This document shows positions 37,087-44,950 of a stretch of 64,000 nucleotides of DNA, piece after piece. Source of the DNA: Chitinophagaceae bacterium (GTDB lineage Bacteria; Bacteroidota; Bacteroidia; Chitinophagales; Chitinophagaceae); contig CANGIY010000002.1 in the NCBI GenBank assembly GCA_947454235.1, positions 62,001-126,000 on the forward strand. The letters run 5' to 3'. The position numbers and the translations under genes are program-made. The notes under the pieces are model-generated. The model worked only from the letters and a program-made list of their open reading frames with translations, was not told the DNA's origin and did not search any database. Within the stretch, counting starts at the first letter, position 1. Each line of letters starts with the position of its first letter.

Positions 37087-37608
37087 ATGAGCGCTATGAA
37101 ATCAAGTACCAATAAAAAAACCGCCGGCAAAACAAGCGCTGACGAAAGCGCATCATCGGCTTCAAAGAAAACGTCTCCAAAAACCAAAAAGGCGGCAATG
37201 GAAGATGATGAGGATTTAGATGATGAACTGGATGAAGCTCCAAAGAAAGCGTCGAAAACAACCAAAGCATCGGCTAAAAAGAAAAAAGACGATGACGATG
37301 ATGATGACGACGACGATACTCCTAAAAAGAAGTCTGCTTCAAAAGCTTCGTCAAAGAAAAGTTCTGACGACGACGATGATGATGACGACGATTTGGACGA
37401 AGAAGATGACGATTTTGGAAAAGATGACTTTGAGGATGAAATTGATATAGACAAAGAATTCGAAGAGTTCGAACTTCCGAAATCAAAAAGCAAAACTCCG
37501 GGTAAAAAGAAAAGTTCATCAAAAGACGATGACTTTGATGATGAGTTCAAAGATTTGGGCTTTTTCAGTGAGTCGGGTGGGTTTGACGATGACGATGATG
37601 ACTATTAA
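37087..37608 (+). CDS. Low-complexity block-polyampholyte protein (Lys/Ser/Ala blocks alternating with Asp/Glu blocks)
   Basis: Continuous ORF between purA and pabB; KKKKDDDDDDDDDDTPKKKSASKASSKKSSDDDDDDDDDLDEEDDD.. Confidence 0.7.
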   Translation: MSAMKSSTNKKTAGKTSADESASSASKKTSPKTKKAAMEDDEDLDDELDEAPKKASKTTKASAKKKKDDDDDDDDDDTPKKKSASKASSKKSSDDDDDDDDDLDEEDDDFGKDDFEDEIDIDKEFEEFELPKSKSKTPGKKKSSSKDDDFDDEFKDLGFFSESGGFDDDDDDY

Positions 37609-37616
37609 TAATCTAA

Positions 37617-38900
37617 GTGCGTCAATTCTATAAAACGACATATAACATAGCAAGTCAGTCTGCTGATTTGCTTAAGGATAGGATGCTGAACTGGGCCAAC
37701 CGGTTCAGCATTCATCTTTTACTAGATAGCAATAGCTACAAACACACTATTGGTACCTTCGAATTTCTGCTGGGTGTGGGAACGGATGCTTCTCCAACAG
37801 TAACTAGCCATATTGCTCTTCAGAATCAACATGAGCGGCAATGGTGGCTGGGACATGTGAACTACGACTACAAAAACACGCTTTTTAAAGGTCTGCAAAC
37901 AAATAAAAAAGAGGTCAAGGCATTTTGTGACTTCTTCTTTTTTGCGCCTGATACCATCCTATACATCGAAAGAGATTCAACTGAATTAGTAATAGAGTCT
38001 ATTCATGAACCCGATTTGATTTGGAATGAAATACTGGAATGTGCACCTCAATTTGATGCGAAATTGCCAAAAGTAGATTTCAAGAAAGCCCTTGGGAAAA
38101 ATGAATATTGCGAAATTGTTGATCGTCTTAGGCAACACATTAAAGATGGAGATTGTTACGAGATTAACTTATGCAATTATGCCTATGCTAAAGATGTAGC
38201 AATAAACCCTGTTGCTGTTTTCAAGCAATTAAACAGTGCCTCACCTGCGCCATTTTCGGCTTTTTACAAAGTGGGGAGTAGCACAATGATGTGTTCTAGC
38301 CCTGAAAGGTATTTAACCAGAGTAGGCGAGCGCGTATACTCTCAACCTATTAAGGGTACAGCACGTAGAAGCCATATTGCAGCAGTCGACGAGCAAATTA
38401 AGGTAGACCTGCGCCAAAGTATCAAGGAGCGGGCAGAAAATGTAATGATTGTCGATCTTGTGCGCAATGACCTGGCACAATCGTGCAAAACGGGGTCAAT
38501 TCAAGTTGATGAGCTATTTGGTGTGTACACTTTTCCGCATGTACACCAACTCATTTCAACCGTTTCAGGGGTACTTAAAAATAGTAATGGATTTTCATTT
38601 TCGCCCATTGAAAAGTCATTTCCTATGGGTAGCATGACAGGTGCGCCTAAATACAAAGTGATGCAGCTTATTGAGCAATATGAAGCTGTGGCACGTGGTT
38701 TATTTTCAGGGTCTGTTGGTTATATAACACCTGATGGTGATTTTGATTTGAATGTAGTCATCAGGTCTCTTTTCTATAATGCCGGCACCCAACATCTCTG
38801 TTACCAGACAGGCGGAGCCATAACCTGGGACAGTGTCCCTGAACAAGAATGGGGAGAGATGCTGTTGAAAGGCGAAGCATTAGAACGTTTGTTTCGATAA
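37617..38900 (+). CDS. pabB: Aminodeoxychorismate synthase component I / anthranilate-synthase-I family
   Basis: DCYEINLCNYAYA; SSPERYL; QPIKGTARR; ENVMIVDLVRNDLAQSC; GSMTGAPKYKVMQLIEQYE; GTG start. Confidence 0.85.
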   Translation: MRQFYKTTYNIASQSADLLKDRMLNWANRFSIHLLLDSNSYKHTIGTFEFLLGVGTDASPTVTSHIALQNQHERQWWLGHVNYDYKNTLFKGLQTNKKEVKAFCDFFFFAPDTILYIERDSTELVIESIHEPDLIWNEILECAPQFDAKLPKVDFKKALGKNEYCEIVDRLRQHIKDGDCYEINLCNYAYAKDVAINPVAVFKQLNSASPAPFSAFYKVGSSTMMCSSPERYLTRVGERVYSQPIKGTARRSHIAAVDEQIKVDLRQSIKERAENVMIVDLVRNDLAQSCKTGSIQVDELFGVYTFPHVHQLISTVSGVLKNSNGFSFSPIEKSFPMGSMTGAPKYKVMQLIEQYEAVARGLFSGSVGYITPDGDFDLNVVIRSLFYNAGTQHLCYQTGGAITWDSVPEQEWGEMLLKGEALERLFR

Positions 38901-38972
38901 AATTTCAAAAAATTAAACAAAATTATCTGGCTTCTATACGTGTTTATAGGGGTTGTCTATTTATTTATTGAA

Positions 38973-39009
38973 AAAGTTGAACAAAATATTTTATTGTTTG
39001 TTCAACTTT
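38973..39009. promoter_or_regulatory. 13-bp perfect inverted repeat, candidate CarH/MerR operator
   Basis: AAAGTTGAACAAA (38973-38985) - 11 nt - TTTGTTCAACTTT (38997-39009). Confidence 0.7.
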
Positions 39010-39021: not shown

Positions 39022-39051
39022 TTTAAATTTGTACGAAATTAATTAAACAAA
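39018..39051. promoter_or_regulatory. Second, 9-bp inverted repeat overlapping -7 and reaching the start codon
   Basis: TTTGTTTAA (39018-39026) - 16 nt - TTAAACAAA (39043-39051). Confidence 0.5.
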
Positions 39052-39052
39052 G

Positions 39053-39964
39053 ATGGGGGCATACCAAATCAACGATTTAGAAAATTTGACAGGTATCAAA
39101 GCGCATACAATTAGAATTTGGGAAAAGCGCTATGGTCTTATTACCCCTGCGCGTACTGCAACGAACAGAAGGTTTTACGATGACGCACAGGTGAGGAAAC
39201 TGCTCAATGTAACAACGCTTCTCGCATACGGACACAAGATTTCAACTATCGCATCATACAGTGAGGAAGAACTTTTTTCGCACATCAATAAAGAGAATCA
39301 GGTTGATAATAATGACAGCTTGCGAACAAGCTATGTGAATGACCTGATTAAAACTATGATCTCATTTGACGAGGCGGGGTTTGAGAAAATATTTTCGGCA
39401 TCAGTGCTTCGATACGGTTTGCATGAAACGATGTTGAAAATCATTTATCCTTTTTTGCGCAAAACAGGTGTTTTGTGGAGTGTAAACAAGGCGGCACCTG
39501 TCGAAGAGCATTTTGCAACTGCAATTATAAAAAAGAAACTAATGGCGGCAATTGATGGGCTGCTTCCGGTTCAAAATAGCGAAAACAGATTTGTGTTGTT
39601 TCTGCCGCACAACGAATGGCATGAGATAGGTTTGTTGGTTGCGCATTATTTGTTGCGTTACAATAACATTCCAACCATCTACCTGGGACAGAATGTTCCT
39701 GACGCCGACATTGAGAAGATTCTCGAAAAACTGAATCCTAGATACATCATGCTGTTTTTCGTTACCAGTAAAACAGCTGATGGAATTGGTAACTATTTGA
39801 AATTTATTTCAGAAAAATGTAAGAATGCATCAATTCTTGTTTCAGGATACATGGACTTGCTGAATGAAGTGAAACAAATTCCACAAAACGTTGAAATTCT
39901 GCCTGATGTAAAACACTTGGAACGAATCATAGCTCAAATAAAAGTGGCGTCAGCCATGTCATAA
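39053..39964 (+). CDS. MerR-family regulator with B12-binding domain (CarH/LitR-type photoreceptor)
   Basis: MerR HTH YQINDLENLTGIKAHTIRIWEKRYGLI; W142-x9-E152-H153 (VLWSVNKAAPVEEHF); E188-W-H190-E-I-G. Confidence 0.88.
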   Translation: MGAYQINDLENLTGIKAHTIRIWEKRYGLITPARTATNRRFYDDAQVRKLLNVTTLLAYGHKISTIASYSEEELFSHINKENQVDNNDSLRTSYVNDLIKTMISFDEAGFEKIFSASVLRYGLHETMLKIIYPFLRKTGVLWSVNKAAPVEEHFATAIIKKKLMAAIDGLLPVQNSENRFVLFLPHNEWHEIGLLVAHYLLRYNNIPTIYLGQNVPDADIEKILEKLNPRYIMLFFVTSKTADGIGNYLKFISEKCKNASILVSGYMDLLNEVKQIPQNVEILPDVKHLERIIAQIKVASAMS

Positions 39965-39974
39965 TTTATATCGT

Positions 39975-41456
39975 ATGCCAGCAAGAAACAAAAATGTAGC
40001 AGTGATTGGTAGTGGGTTCTCCGGACTTGCGGCAGCGTGTTTTTTAGCGCGTGAAGGTTGTAATGTTACCGTCTACGAAAAAAATAGTACTGTAGGCGGT
40101 AGGGCAAGAGCTTACCAGAAAGATGGGTTCTTCTTCGATATGGGTCCAAGCTGGTATTGGATGCCTGATATTTTTGAACGCTTTTTTGCTGAATTCGGGA
40201 AAAAGCCATCTGATTATTACGAATTAGTGAAACTTGATCCAGGTTTCCAAATGATTTTCGGTGATGACGACATTCTGCCTGTTCCGGCTAATTTAGATGC
40301 TTTGTATGCTTTGTTCGAATCAATAGAAAAGGGTAGTGCTGAACAGCTCAAAAGGTTCATGAAAGAAGGCGAGTTCAAATATAAAGTAGGGATGAAAGAC
40401 CTTGTGTACAAACCTGCTTTTTCATGGTTTGAATTCGCAACGAAAGATGTGATTACAGGTGCCTTGAAAATGGATGTTTTTAAAAGCATGAGCGCGTACG
40501 TTCGTCGTTTTTTCAAAGATGCACGTTTAAGGGCATTGATGGAATTTCCTGTACTTTTTCTAGGTGCAATGCCCGATAAAATACCTGCTTTGTATTCGCT
40601 AATGAACTTTGCAGCTCTTGATATGGGGACTTGGTATCCCATAAAAGGAATGGCAGAAATTCCAAACGCTATGTATGCGCTTGCGAAAGAGCTGGGTGTG
40701 CACTTTGAGTTAGATTGTGAAGTAAAGCGTGTGATTATTGAACGAGATAATGTCACTAAAGTAAGTACTTCAAAAGGTGTGTTTTTGGCCAACGGTGTTG
40801 TAGGTGCAGGCGATTATAACCACATTGACCAACACATTGTACCCGAAGAATTTCGCAACTACAATGCAGACTACTGGGAGAAAAAGACATTTGCGCCGAG
40901 TTGCCTGATCTTCTATATAGGTGTCAATAAAAAAGTAAAGCGCCTCATTCACCACAACCTGTTTTTTGATACCGACTTTGATAAACATTCAAAAGAAATC
41001 TATCAAAATCCGCAATGGCCTGAAGATCCGCTCTTTTATGCGTGTGTACCGTCAAAAACCGATTCAAATGTTGCTCCGGAGGGAATGGAAAATATATTTA
41101 TACTCATTCCGGTTGCGCCAGGGCTTGAAGATTCAGAACCTGTACGTGAAAGGTATTATGGTAAAATAATAGAACGCCTGGAAAAGTACACGGGAGATGC
41201 TATTGCAGCACATGTCGTGCATAAAAGAAGTTACTGTATCAACGATTTTAAAGCCGACTACAATGCATTTAAGGGCAATGCCTACGGATTAGCAAATACA
41301 TTGATGCAAACAGCAGTTTTAAAACCATCATTAAAAAACAAAAAGCTTTCAAACTTGTTTTACGCCGGTCAACTAACAGTACCTGGTCCGGGAGTACCAC
41401 CTGCGCTTATTTCGGGGCAGTTGGCAGCAGAACAATTACTAAAGACATTCAACTAG
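39975..41456 (+). CDS. crtI: Phytoene desaturase
   Basis: VAVIGSGFSGLAAACFLAREGCNVTVYEKNSTVGGRA; PGPGVPPALISGQLAAEQLL-type C-terminus. Confidence 0.92.
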   Translation: MPARNKNVAVIGSGFSGLAAACFLAREGCNVTVYEKNSTVGGRARAYQKDGFFFDMGPSWYWMPDIFERFFAEFGKKPSDYYELVKLDPGFQMIFGDDDILPVPANLDALYALFESIEKGSAEQLKRFMKEGEFKYKVGMKDLVYKPAFSWFEFATKDVITGALKMDVFKSMSAYVRRFFKDARLRALMEFPVLFLGAMPDKIPALYSLMNFAALDMGTWYPIKGMAEIPNAMYALAKELGVHFELDCEVKRVIIERDNVTKVSTSKGVFLANGVVGAGDYNHIDQHIVPEEFRNYNADYWEKKTFAPSCLIFYIGVNKKVKRLIHHNLFFDTDFDKHSKEIYQNPQWPEDPLFYACVPSKTDSNVAPEGMENIFILIPVAPGLEDSEPVRERYYGKIIERLEKYTGDAIAAHVVHKRSYCINDFKADYNAFKGNAYGLANTLMQTAVLKPSLKNKKLSNLFYAGQLTVPGPGVPPALISGQLAAEQLLKTFN

Positions 41457-41463
41457 AAATACC

Positions 41464-42300
41464 ATGAAAGAACTATTTGACCAAGTATCAGCAAAATGTA
41501 GCAAGACTACAACCAACTCGTACAGCACGAGTTTCTCTTTGGGCATCAAGTTCCTTGATGCGCATCTTCATGGCCCAATCTATGGCATTTATGGTTTCGT
41601 TCGCTTTGCCGATGAAATCGTTGATAGTTTCCATAACTACGATAAATCGTCATTGTTAGATGAGTTTAAAAAGGAAACCTGGATTGCTATTGAACGTAAA
41701 ATCAGTCTTAATCCAATACTCAATAGTTTCCAGCACGTTGTCAATAATTACAACATAGAAAGGGAATTGATAGAGTGCTTTTTCAAAAGCATGGAAACAG
41801 ATTTAAGTGAAATTGAACACTCTCGCGAGTCATATAATGAGTATATACTCGGCTCGGCAGAAGTTGTAGGGCTGATGTGTCTAAGGGTATTCACCAACAA
41901 TGATGCGCAGCTATACCAAGATTTAAAGCCATTCGCAATGAAGCTGGGTGCTGCGTTCCAAAAGGTGAATTTCCTGCGCGACCTTCAGGCAGACTACAAT
42001 ACTCTTGGCAGAACTTATTTCCCCGGTCTTGACTTTAGCCAATTCACAGCAAAAGAAAAAGAACACATTCAAAAAGAGATTGAACAAGATTTTGATGATG
42101 CCCTGGTAGGAATCAGAAAATTGCCAGCCTCTTCAAGACGGGGAGTGTACCTCGCTTATTTTTATTACCGCAAGTTATTCCTGCTCATAAAGAAAACACC
42201 AGCGGAAAGAGTAATGAATACAAGAATTAGAATTTCAAACCACCGTAAAATCGGATTGATGTTTCAATCAATGGTTAGACACGGCTTAAATCTTTTATAA
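41464..42300 (+). CDS. crtB: Phytoene synthase
   Basis: TNSYSTSFSLGIKFL; FVRFADEIVDSFH; QKVNFLRDLQADYNTLGRTYFP. Confidence 0.92.
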   Translation: MKELFDQVSAKCSKTTTNSYSTSFSLGIKFLDAHLHGPIYGIYGFVRFADEIVDSFHNYDKSSLLDEFKKETWIAIERKISLNPILNSFQHVVNNYNIERELIECFFKSMETDLSEIEHSRESYNEYILGSAEVVGLMCLRVFTNNDAQLYQDLKPFAMKLGAAFQKVNFLRDLQADYNTLGRTYFPGLDFSQFTAKEKEHIQKEIEQDFDDALVGIRKLPASSRRGVYLAYFYYRKLFLLIKKTPAERVMNTRIRISNHRKIGLMFQSMVRHGLNLL

Positions 42301-42794
42301 TGGTAAGAACTGGCTTAATCAATATCGCATTGTTAATGTCAATCAATGCACCGGCTTACAACATTAATGCTGTAAGAAAACTATACTATGATGCTGCTAA
42401 AAACAGCAATAACAAGGAGTCGTTTTATGAAGCAGTAACTACAATGCCTGAAAACGACGCGCTTATTTCGGGATACAAAGGCATAGCCACAGTTCTGATG
42501 GCTGAATGCGTTTATAATCCATACAGTAAGCTTAGTTACTTTACAAAAGGCAAAAGGCAACTGGAGGCCGCCATAGCAAAAGATCCGTCCAGTGTTGAAC
42601 TGGTTTTTTTGAGGTATTGTATCCAAACCAATGCTCCGTTCTTTTTGCAATACAATGGCAATATTGAAACTGATAAAAAAATGTTGCTTTCAAGATGGTC
42701 TTCATTAACAGATGCTGATTTAAAAAAAAGAATTGCAGACTACATGAAAGACTCAAAATTTTGTAATTCAGCAGAGAAAAAAGTGTTTTCATGA
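42300..42794 (+). CDS. Unknown alpha-helical protein inside the carotenoid operon
   Basis: TAATG overlap with crtB stop and ATGA overlap with idi start; hydrophobic N-terminus. Confidence 0.7.
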   Translation: MVRTGLINIALLMSINAPAYNINAVRKLYYDAAKNSNNKESFYEAVTTMPENDALISGYKGIATVLMAECVYNPYSKLSYFTKGKRQLEAAIAKDPSSVELVFLRYCIQTNAPFFLQYNGNIETDKKMLLSRWSSLTDADLKKRIADYMKDSKFCNSAEKKVFS

Positions 42795-43303
42795 TTGAAA
42801 TGATGATTCTGGTTGACCAGAACGATAATGAAATAGGTACTTTACCCAAGCTTGAAACCCACGAAAAGGGTTTACTGCATAGGGCTTTTTCAATATTTAT
42901 TTTCAATAACCAGGGGCAAATGTTGTTGCAGCAGCGGGCAGCAGCTAAATACCACTCCCCACTTTTATGGACAAATGCCTGTTGTAGTCACCCGCGGTTG
43001 GGAGAAACTGTGCTTCAAGCAGCCCAAAGAAGGTTGCAGGAAGAAATGGGTTTCGTCACCGGACTTACGCCGAAGTTTTCATTCATATACAAGGCTGAAT
43101 TTGATAACGGACTTACAGAGCATGAATTAGACCATGTATTGGTTGGGACTTTTGATGGTACTCCAGTTATTAATAAAGAAGAGGTAGAGGATTATAAATG
43201 GATGTCAATGAATGAATTAAACAAAGACATGATGGTTAACCCCCACCTTTATACGGTTTGGTTTACGATATGCATGAACGAATACCTTAATCATTTAAAG
43301 TAA
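42791..43303 (+). CDS. idi: Isopentenyl-diphosphate delta-isomerase (type I, Nudix)
   Basis: LLQQRAAAKYHSPLLWTNACCSHPRLGETVLQAAQRRLQEEMGF. Confidence 0.92.
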   Translation: MIEMMILVDQNDNEIGTLPKLETHEKGLLHRAFSIFIFNNQGQMLLQQRAAAKYHSPLLWTNACCSHPRLGETVLQAAQRRLQEEMGFVTGLTPKFSFIYKAEFDNGLTEHELDHVLVGTFDGTPVINKEEVEDYKWMSMNELNKDMMVNPHLYTVWFTICMNEYLNHLK

Positions 43304-43776: not shown

Positions 43777-44247
43777 ATGTTAGACGCCATTATTTTAACT
43801 GGTACTTTTTTTGGTATGGAAGCGGTAGCTTGGTTAGCCCATAAATACATTATGCACGGCTTTTTGTGGGTATTGCATGAAGATCATCACAAGAAAAATC
43901 CAACTTCATTTTTTGAAAAGAACGATTACTTCTTTCTCATTTTTGCCATTCCCGGAATCCTGTGCTTAGCGCTGGGATTATACACTTCGTTAACCCACCT
44001 CTTTTATATTGGACTAGGAATTACGATTTACGGCTTTGCTTATTTCATGGTGCATGACATTTTCATTCACCAACGATTTAAGTGGTTGCGAAATAGCGAC
44101 AATGTCTATTTCAGGGCTATCAGGCGAGCGCATAAAATGCACCACAAACACCTTGGTAAGGAAGAAGGTGAGTGCTTTGGTATGTTGATGGTGCCCATTA
44201 AGTACTTTCTTGCAGAAATAAAAAGCAAGCAACAGGTCAATGTCTGA
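43777..44247 (+). CDS. crtZ: Beta-carotene hydroxylase
   Basis: His motifs HKYIMHG, HEDHHKK, HDIFIHQR, RAHKMHHKH. Confidence 0.88.
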   Translation: MLDAIILTGTFFGMEAVAWLAHKYIMHGFLWVLHEDHHKKNPTSFFEKNDYFFLIFAIPGILCLALGLYTSLTHLFYIGLGITIYGFAYFMVHDIFIHQRFKWLRNSDNVYFRAIRRAHKMHHKHLGKEEGECFGMLMVPIKYFLAEIKSKQQVNV

Positions 44248-44950
44248 GCACTATACATACATTTGGGTTGATGTATTGTGCGTGGTATTTCCGTTCATAT
44301 TTTCGTTTCATCCCAAAATCGGGTTTTCGAAGCAATGGAAGTACTTTTTAACACCATGGCTCGTGACCGCACTATTCTTTGTGGTTTGGGATATATTTTT
44401 CACTTCAATCAATGTTTGGTGGTTTGACAGTAGGTACGTTATTGGAATGTGGTGGCAGGGTATGCCTGTAGAAGAGTACCTGTTCTTCCTTTGTATTCCT
44501 TATTCTTGTGTCTTTACCTATCATGTGCTCACAAGCCTTTTAAAGGTTGATTTCACAAAATGGGAGCAGAAGGCAAAAGCTTTTACAATTTATGTTTTAA
44601 TCCCGGTATTGGTTATTGTAGGCACTATTTACCACAATCGATATTACACGTTTTCAACGGCTATTTTGTTAGCTATTGCGCTAATCATAGCTGTCTTAGT
44701 TAGGTTTAAGTATTTTGCGCAATTCTATTTTTCTTACTCAATACTCTTAATACCTTTCACAATATCAAACGGAGTGCTGACAGGTAGTTTTTTAGGCAGG
44801 GTAGTAGTACATTACAACAATACACACAACCTTGGAATCAGAATGTTGACAATACCGGTTGAAGATATTTTTTACGGAATGTTACTCATATTTATGACTG
44901 TATTGCAGATGGAGTACCGTAAATCACTTGTTGTAAAATCGGGTAGGTAA
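44240..44950 (+). CDS. Lycopene cyclase (fused CrtYc/CrtYd-type heterocyclase domains)
   Basis: MWWQGMPVEEYLFFLCIPYSCVFTYH; IPVEDIFYGMLLIFMT; multi-TM. Confidence 0.85.
   Translation: MSEHYTYIWVDVLCVVFPFIFSFHPKIGFSKQWKYFLTPWLVTALFFVVWDIFFTSINVWWFDSRYVIGMWWQGMPVEEYLFFLCIPYSCVFTYHVLTSLLKVDFTKWEQKAKAFTIYVLIPVLVIVGTIYHNRYYTFSTAILLAIALIIAVLVRFKYFAQFYFSYSILLIPFTISNGVLTGSFLGRVVVHYNNTHNLGIRMLTIPVEDIFYGMLLIFMTVLQMEYRKSLVVKSGR

Follow-up and report, generated by a model that had tools for sequence, protein, structure and literature searches.

A CarH-derived regulator at a Bacteroidia carotenoid operon with a changed cobalamin-tail pocket and a predicted inverted operator

Here we analysed a MerR-type regulator gene that heads a carotenoid (crt) operon in a 64,000-nucleotide stretch of Chitinophagaceae DNA (the window). 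By computation, the regulator descends from CarH and has kept the adenosyl cap and the axial His, its pocket for the cobalamin tail has changed, and the operator is associated with the regulator. The best explanation, to which we give about an even chance, is an autorepressor derived from CarH, altered in both its cofactor pocket and its operator, that governs a regulon probably responsive to light. Coordinates are collected in Table 1.

The regulator and the crt operon

The TtCarH crystal sequences were matched by residues 2-240 of the regulator (phmmer, E ~1e-21), and hhalign paired 276 columns of its family profile with those of a CarH-type profile at a probability of 100%. An AlphaFold model from an 80-sequence alignment (mean pLDDT 93.7) resembles the cobalamin domains of CtMerR, TtCarH and photocobilin over residues 89-296, with Z of 20-21. 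The Pfam B12-binding model scored 1.1e-5, below its cut-off, and the NCBIfam CarH model NF052513 gave 99.8 bits against a cut-off of 400. The sequence, profile and fold matches support descent from CarH-type proteins, and by the same alignments the match to the Wx9EH-type motif is homology and not a chance hit. The first-pass annotation had described the reading frame at 39053-39964 with W142, E152-H153 and H190 at their codons, and the translation agrees. It had also placed the gene at the head of a crt operon; crtI indeed begins 11 bp past its stop codon.

The genes past crtI are, in order, CrtB-like, idi, SRPBCC-like, CrtZ-like and one for a lycopene cyclase domain. A small open reading frame inside the operon (42300-42794, +) has no assigned family and has relatives at other crt loci of the regulator family. 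Outside the operon, between purA and a chorismate-binding-like gene, lies a low-complexity reading frame rich in Lys, Ser and Asp with long acidic runs (37087-37608, +).

Table 1 Features of the regulator, its predicted operator and the crt operon in the window.
Feature	Position	Strand	Evidence
CarH-derived MerR-type regulator, 303 aa	39053..39964	+	homology searches, fold match, profile alignment
N-terminal MerR DNA-binding domain	39053..39262	+	Pfam MerR_1 7.6e-15, residues 4-69
W142, adenosyl-stacking Trp of Wx9EH	39476..39478	+	aligned with TtCarH W131; W in 167/172 family members
E152-H153 of Wx9EH	39506..39511	+	E in 171/172, H in 160/172 family members
H190, predicted lower axial ligand	39620..39622	+	aligned with TtCarH H177; H in 161/172
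F235, replaces tail-contacting Ser222 of CarH	39755..39757	+	ungapped spacing, hhalign in same register
S264-G265, replaces GG of B12 motif	39842..39847	+	alignment, hhalign
Weaker third operator copy, 2 mismatches	38889..38920	.	
Second, facing half-site pair TTGAACAA...TTGTTCAA, spacing 21	38977..39005	.	
Predicted main operator TTGTTTAA-N16-TTAAACAA	39019..39050	.	word search, spacing counts, genome association
TAAATTTG, match to -7 element TAnnTTTG, within operator	39024..39031	+	
crtI, phytoene desaturase	39975..41456	+	NF058655 723 bits, cut-off 640
crtB-like, phytoene/squalene synthase family	41464..42300	+	squalene/phytoene synthase models, below cut-offs
idi, isopentenyl-diphosphate isomerase	42791..43303	+	TIGR02150 over cut-off
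lycopene cyclase (CarR domain)	44240..44950	+	TIGR03462 over cut-off

Retained adenosyl cap and axial histidine

The Wx9EH motif of CarH is present in the regulator. Ungapped pairing with TtCarH sets W142 against W131, E152-H153 against E141-H142 and H190 against H177, so that all of these residues fall in cobalamin-site columns, where the first-pass annotation had assigned them. The segment E188-W-H190-E-I-G193 (39614-39631) conforms to D/ExHx2G/P with its axial His. SignatureFinder describes a light-responsive cobalamin domain by GxxW, EH, GxxH and GxxxP (PMC11796333). Three of these four are found in the regulator, as G139xxW142, E152H153 and G212xxxP216, and N187xxH190 stands in place of GxxH. 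Asn187 may be tolerated, since the Gly of GxxH works through its main chain.

The Trp, Glu and two His residues are each kept in 93-99% of about 172 Bacteroidia homologues. Among 118 representatives of the family (<60% identity), the Trp is kept in 114, the Glu in 117, and the residues equivalent to TtCarH H142 and H177 in 110 and 109. The Trp and Glu are adenosyl contacts in CarH (PMC10442372). Such strong constraint on the cap and the axial His argues for a ligand with an adenosyl-like upper group.

A changed tail pocket

CarH homologues are defined jointly by Wx9EH and by ExHx2G-x41-SxT/V-x22-27-GG (PMC8156234; PMC9304148). The first-pass annotation had credited the regulator with the full CarH signature; Wx9EH and ExHxxG stand, and the SxT/V and GG elements do not. 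At exactly the x41 spacing past G193 we found F235-F236-V237, and S264-G265 lies where GG is expected 22-27 residues further on. The same annotation had recognized this late GG as degenerate (ILVSGY); Phe235 in place of the Ser, and Ser143 in place of the photoproduct ligand His132, had gone unremarked there. The spacing from G193 to position 235 is unchanged in 171 of 176 family members. In AerR, hydrogen bonds to the dimethylbenzimidazole tail come from Thr189 (equivalent to Ser222) and a conserved Gly (PMC9144470), so the changes in the regulator strike the tail site. Ordinary AdoB12 may not fit the pocket, since Phe235 and Ser264 stand in for residues that touch this tail or leave space for it, and the altered site argues against classical cobalamin binding. 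Methionine synthase, an IcmF-like protein and the B12 subunit of a mutase, all of the same genome, retain the Ser and GG.

The regulator departs from CarH at other positions as well. Where TtCarH has His132, the cobalt ligand of the photolysed state, the regulator has Ser143; loss of this His alone is not disqualifying, because CtMerR is light-responsive with Arg at this position (PMC11796333). The dimer pair of CarH, Arg176 and Asp201 (PMC10442372), is replaced by Trp189 and Asn214, and the interdomain link is longer than in TtCarH.

The family across Bacteroidia

Homologues were found in 89 of 149 Bacteroidia genomes and in 115 of 149 genomes of the order. Across 172 Bacteroidia sequences, Ser222 is kept in nine, the position otherwise holding mostly F, V, I, H or Y. 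The first Gly of GG is likewise kept in nine, being otherwise mostly S, A or T, and the second Gly in 164 (166 among 176 members). The same pattern, a bulky residue at the Ser222 position and a replaced G247, extends to the 118 representatives. In the other classes of the phylum, every CarH-type protein has S, A, T, G or N at Ser222, and most have GG. By these counts, the pocket changes are clade-wide in Bacteroidia.

In the tree, the Bacteroidia family forms one clade (support 0.87) with TtCarH outside it. The clade adjoins five proteins of other classes in which the Ser is mostly kept (4/5) and loss of GG has begun. This sister group (L169, L171, L184, L211, L212) has QxHxxG and a partly degenerate GG, and appears to represent an intermediate state. 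Divergent members without the cap or axial His also occur (L098:2505-3383 (+), L148:2386-3252 (+), L163:2277-3230 (+), L164:2393-3283 (+)), for example with H177 changed to Q along with H142 to E; these are probably B12-independent side branches. A cobalamin adenosyltransferase gene (PF01923) is present in the regulator's genome. As a test of AdoCbl use, co-occurrence with this gene is uninformative, since PF01923 is found in 146 of 149 genomes; CobA/BtuR is found in one of 149.

Operator and promoter

A de novo word search upstream of 181 family genes returned TTAAACAA as the top word, present in 61 sequences against 10 expected and in 23 of 393 control upstream regions. The outward pair TTGTTTAA-N16-TTAAACAA occurred exactly, with a slightly degenerate half-site, 24 times against 0.0 in shuffles, and 48 times against 3.4 with one mismatch per half. 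The exact operator was also present in 14 of 123 representatives (<60% identity) and in none of the shuffles. The window copy is a perfect inverted repeat of 32 bp lying 2 bp ahead of the start codon. The facing orientation at spacing 21 is enriched as well (21 against 4.7, one mismatch per half).

CarH operators are tandem 11-bp direct repeats, nnnnTnnACAn, which share the recognition core TnnACA (PMC9304148). The half-sites here are instead inverted and 24 bp apart, and exact 11-bp direct repeats show no excess upstream of family genes. TnnACA is nevertheless present within the half-site, and the recognition motif of the MerR domain, RIWEKRYG here and RQWERRYG in TtCarH, has RIWEKRY close to RxWERRY. 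With up to 3 mismatches, the operator did not rise over background in the window or the genome; genome counts use only copies with at most one mismatch. The papers listed by a literature search on the operator word were all unrelated.

The operator contains TAnnTTTG, the Bacteroidota -7 promoter element known from Bacteroides promoters. Of 46 family operators, 12 have it on the gene strand, with 1.2 expected, and none on the other strand. Protein bound at the predicted operator would sit over the promoter, which points most naturally to repression; the regulator likely acts as a repressor.

The predicted regulon

The 4.17 Mb genome holds four perfect operator copies and one with a single mismatch. 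These lie ahead of the crt operon, PTPS-FolE (31 bp, L228) and a TonB-dependent receptor gene (5 bp, L229), upstream of a gene encoding a PETase-like secreted hydrolase (L230), and in the interval that separates plsY from a lipoprotein-like gene (L226). Copies in other genomes stand just before genes for an ECF sigma factor (L272, 1 bp), crtI (L274), crtZ-like (L277, L278), SRPBCC-like (L273), FolE (L275), PTPS (L280, L284) and a fasciclin protein (L279). At L289:2009-2728 (+), a predicted operator ends 6 bp ahead of a bacteriorhodopsin-like gene, which suggests that rhodopsin is part of the regulon in that genome. Secreted DUF4397 proteins repeatedly follow the operator (L270, L271, L283, L285, L287), possibly reflecting a new function in light or oxidative stress.

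Genomes with the regulator have a mean of 2.37 operator copies (0.56 for a reversed-pattern control), and genomes without it 0.65 (control 0.48); the per-genome association gave a Mann-Whitney P of 2e-11 without phylogenetic correction. Two counts weigh against the best explanation: the operator stands ahead of the regulator gene in only some 25-33% of the family, and crt genes are absent within the inspected stretch at about half of the family loci. Near the regulator at ~180 loci we found an ECF sigma gene 74 times, crtI 62, photolyase 11 and FolE 10. The ECF-type sigma gene mostly lies just downstream, often between the regulator and crtI (L272:1553-2059 (-), L106:2667-3170 (+)); in the window, none is present between 39964 and 39975.

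The operator sites across Bacteroidia point to an undescribed regulon, probably under control of light. Light is the most likely signal by analogy, because class II LitR of Pseudomonas has a folE-containing light regulon (PMC9758184). We place much more weight on the connection of the regulator with the operator and the crt genes than on the identity of the ligand. A literature search found no account of Bacteroidia light sensing for carotenoid and rhodopsin production. Light induction has been reported in a Chryseobacterium without known car/lit regulators (PMC7064467), and in flavobacterial crt clusters a MerR gene has only been noted (PMC4732338, PMC11855829). The combination of a named regulator, a 32-bp operator and a predicted target list is directly testable. 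A photoreceptor without the classical tail pocket, if confirmed, would inform what B12-type light sensors require and could provide new green-light switches.

Proposed mechanism and alternatives

We infer repression, the identity of the ligand and the response to light. The regulator would repress its own gene and the crt operon by binding the operator across the -7 element and blocking RNA polymerase. The cavity between the four-helix bundle and the Rossmann fold would be occupied by a small molecule, in the most likely case an adenosylated corrinoid, with W142, E152 and H153 above it and H190 below. Photolysis of the Co-C bond would alter the oligomeric state and release the promoter. The corrinoid would either have its nucleotide tail bound unlike in classical CarH or be without the usual tail. 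The same regulator probably governs a small regulon of crt and PTPS-FolE, with rhodopsin, ECF sigma, fasciclin and DUF4397 genes in relatives. AdoB12 binding, light sensing and DNA release form the leading hypothesis for function; for the ligand, an adenosyl-corrinoid bound without a classical tail pocket is the most likely reading, and we judge it roughly as probable as all others together. Slightly short of an even prospect is the broader proposal of a Bacteroidia-wide family of photoreceptors or tetrapyrrole sensors derived from CarH. Its members would have kept the cap and axial His and given up the cobalamin-tail pocket, and would use a corrinoid that has no tail or is bound in another way, or a different tetrapyrrole, to control a light regulon of carotenoid, pterin, rhodopsin and sigma-factor genes through a new inverted operator.

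The regulator shares with TtCarH (class I LitR, 5C8D) the MerR domain, the four-helix bundle and Rossmann fold, Wx9EH, ExHxxG, the position at a crt locus and the TnnACA core. Because the SxT/V and GG elements, the dimer pair and the direct-repeat operator are all missing, and the score lies under the NCBIfam cut-off, it should not be filed as CarH proper; it is CarH-like by descent and by place, and probably by logic. CtMerR of Chloracidobacterium thermophilum (8JBS), in the best fold-match group (Z 20.7-20.9), is similar in its cap, its axial His and the lack of His at position 132, but it retains the Ser and GG (CISAT...VIGGAA).

An unlikely alternative is a B12-independent regulator in which the conserved residues are now structural and the signal comes from a partner protein, as in CarA/CarS or class II LitR with LOV. 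Relatives of this kind exist (PMC9304148, PMC9758184), and two B12-motif positions and the CarH dimer pair have been lost here. However, the Trp and Glu hardly vary over many families, and the ~180 family loci showed no conserved gene for a photosensory partner next to the regulator. M. xanthus CarA, also a CarH-type repressor of crt genes, has the opposite pattern, keeping the B12 motif and lacking the Trp, and was rejected as a type for the regulator. Class II LitR (PplR/PmlR) resembles our prediction in its folE-containing regulon, but is without a recognisable Rossmann domain for B12 binding and acts together with LOV proteins; the Rossmann-fold match excludes this type. The MerR-like MliR of Bizionia (PMC9478572), which has no effector domain, was likewise rejected.

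More doubtful is a cavity occupied by heme or a porphyrin, which lack a nucleotide tail, with the same repressor and operator. The signal would then be heme or porphyrin level, redox or oxygen, or porphyrin photochemistry. An altered tail pocket beside a retained axial His and cap would suit such a ligand, and the SCHIC domain of AppA has the same fold with an altered tetrapyrrole pocket. SCHIC, however, has lost the capping Trp, has its ligand His shifted by two and carries no DNA-binding domain; W142 and H190 of the regulator are in CarH positions, so the SCHIC type was rejected. The invariant Trp and Glu, adenosyl contacts in CarH, also speak against heme or a porphyrin.

It is improbable that the regulator is an ordinary AdoB12-binding CarH whose tail fits by a local strand adjustment, with Thr/Ser234 replacing Ser222: Thr or Ser occurs at 234, one residue ahead of the Ser222 position, in 131 of 176 family members, the second Gly is widely kept, AerR has Thr at the tail contact and retains one Gly, and such a slip could preserve the contact in much of the family, but the spacing and hhalign register are unchanged and the regulator itself, with Leu234-Phe235, has no hydroxyl in either register, which rules the slip out there.
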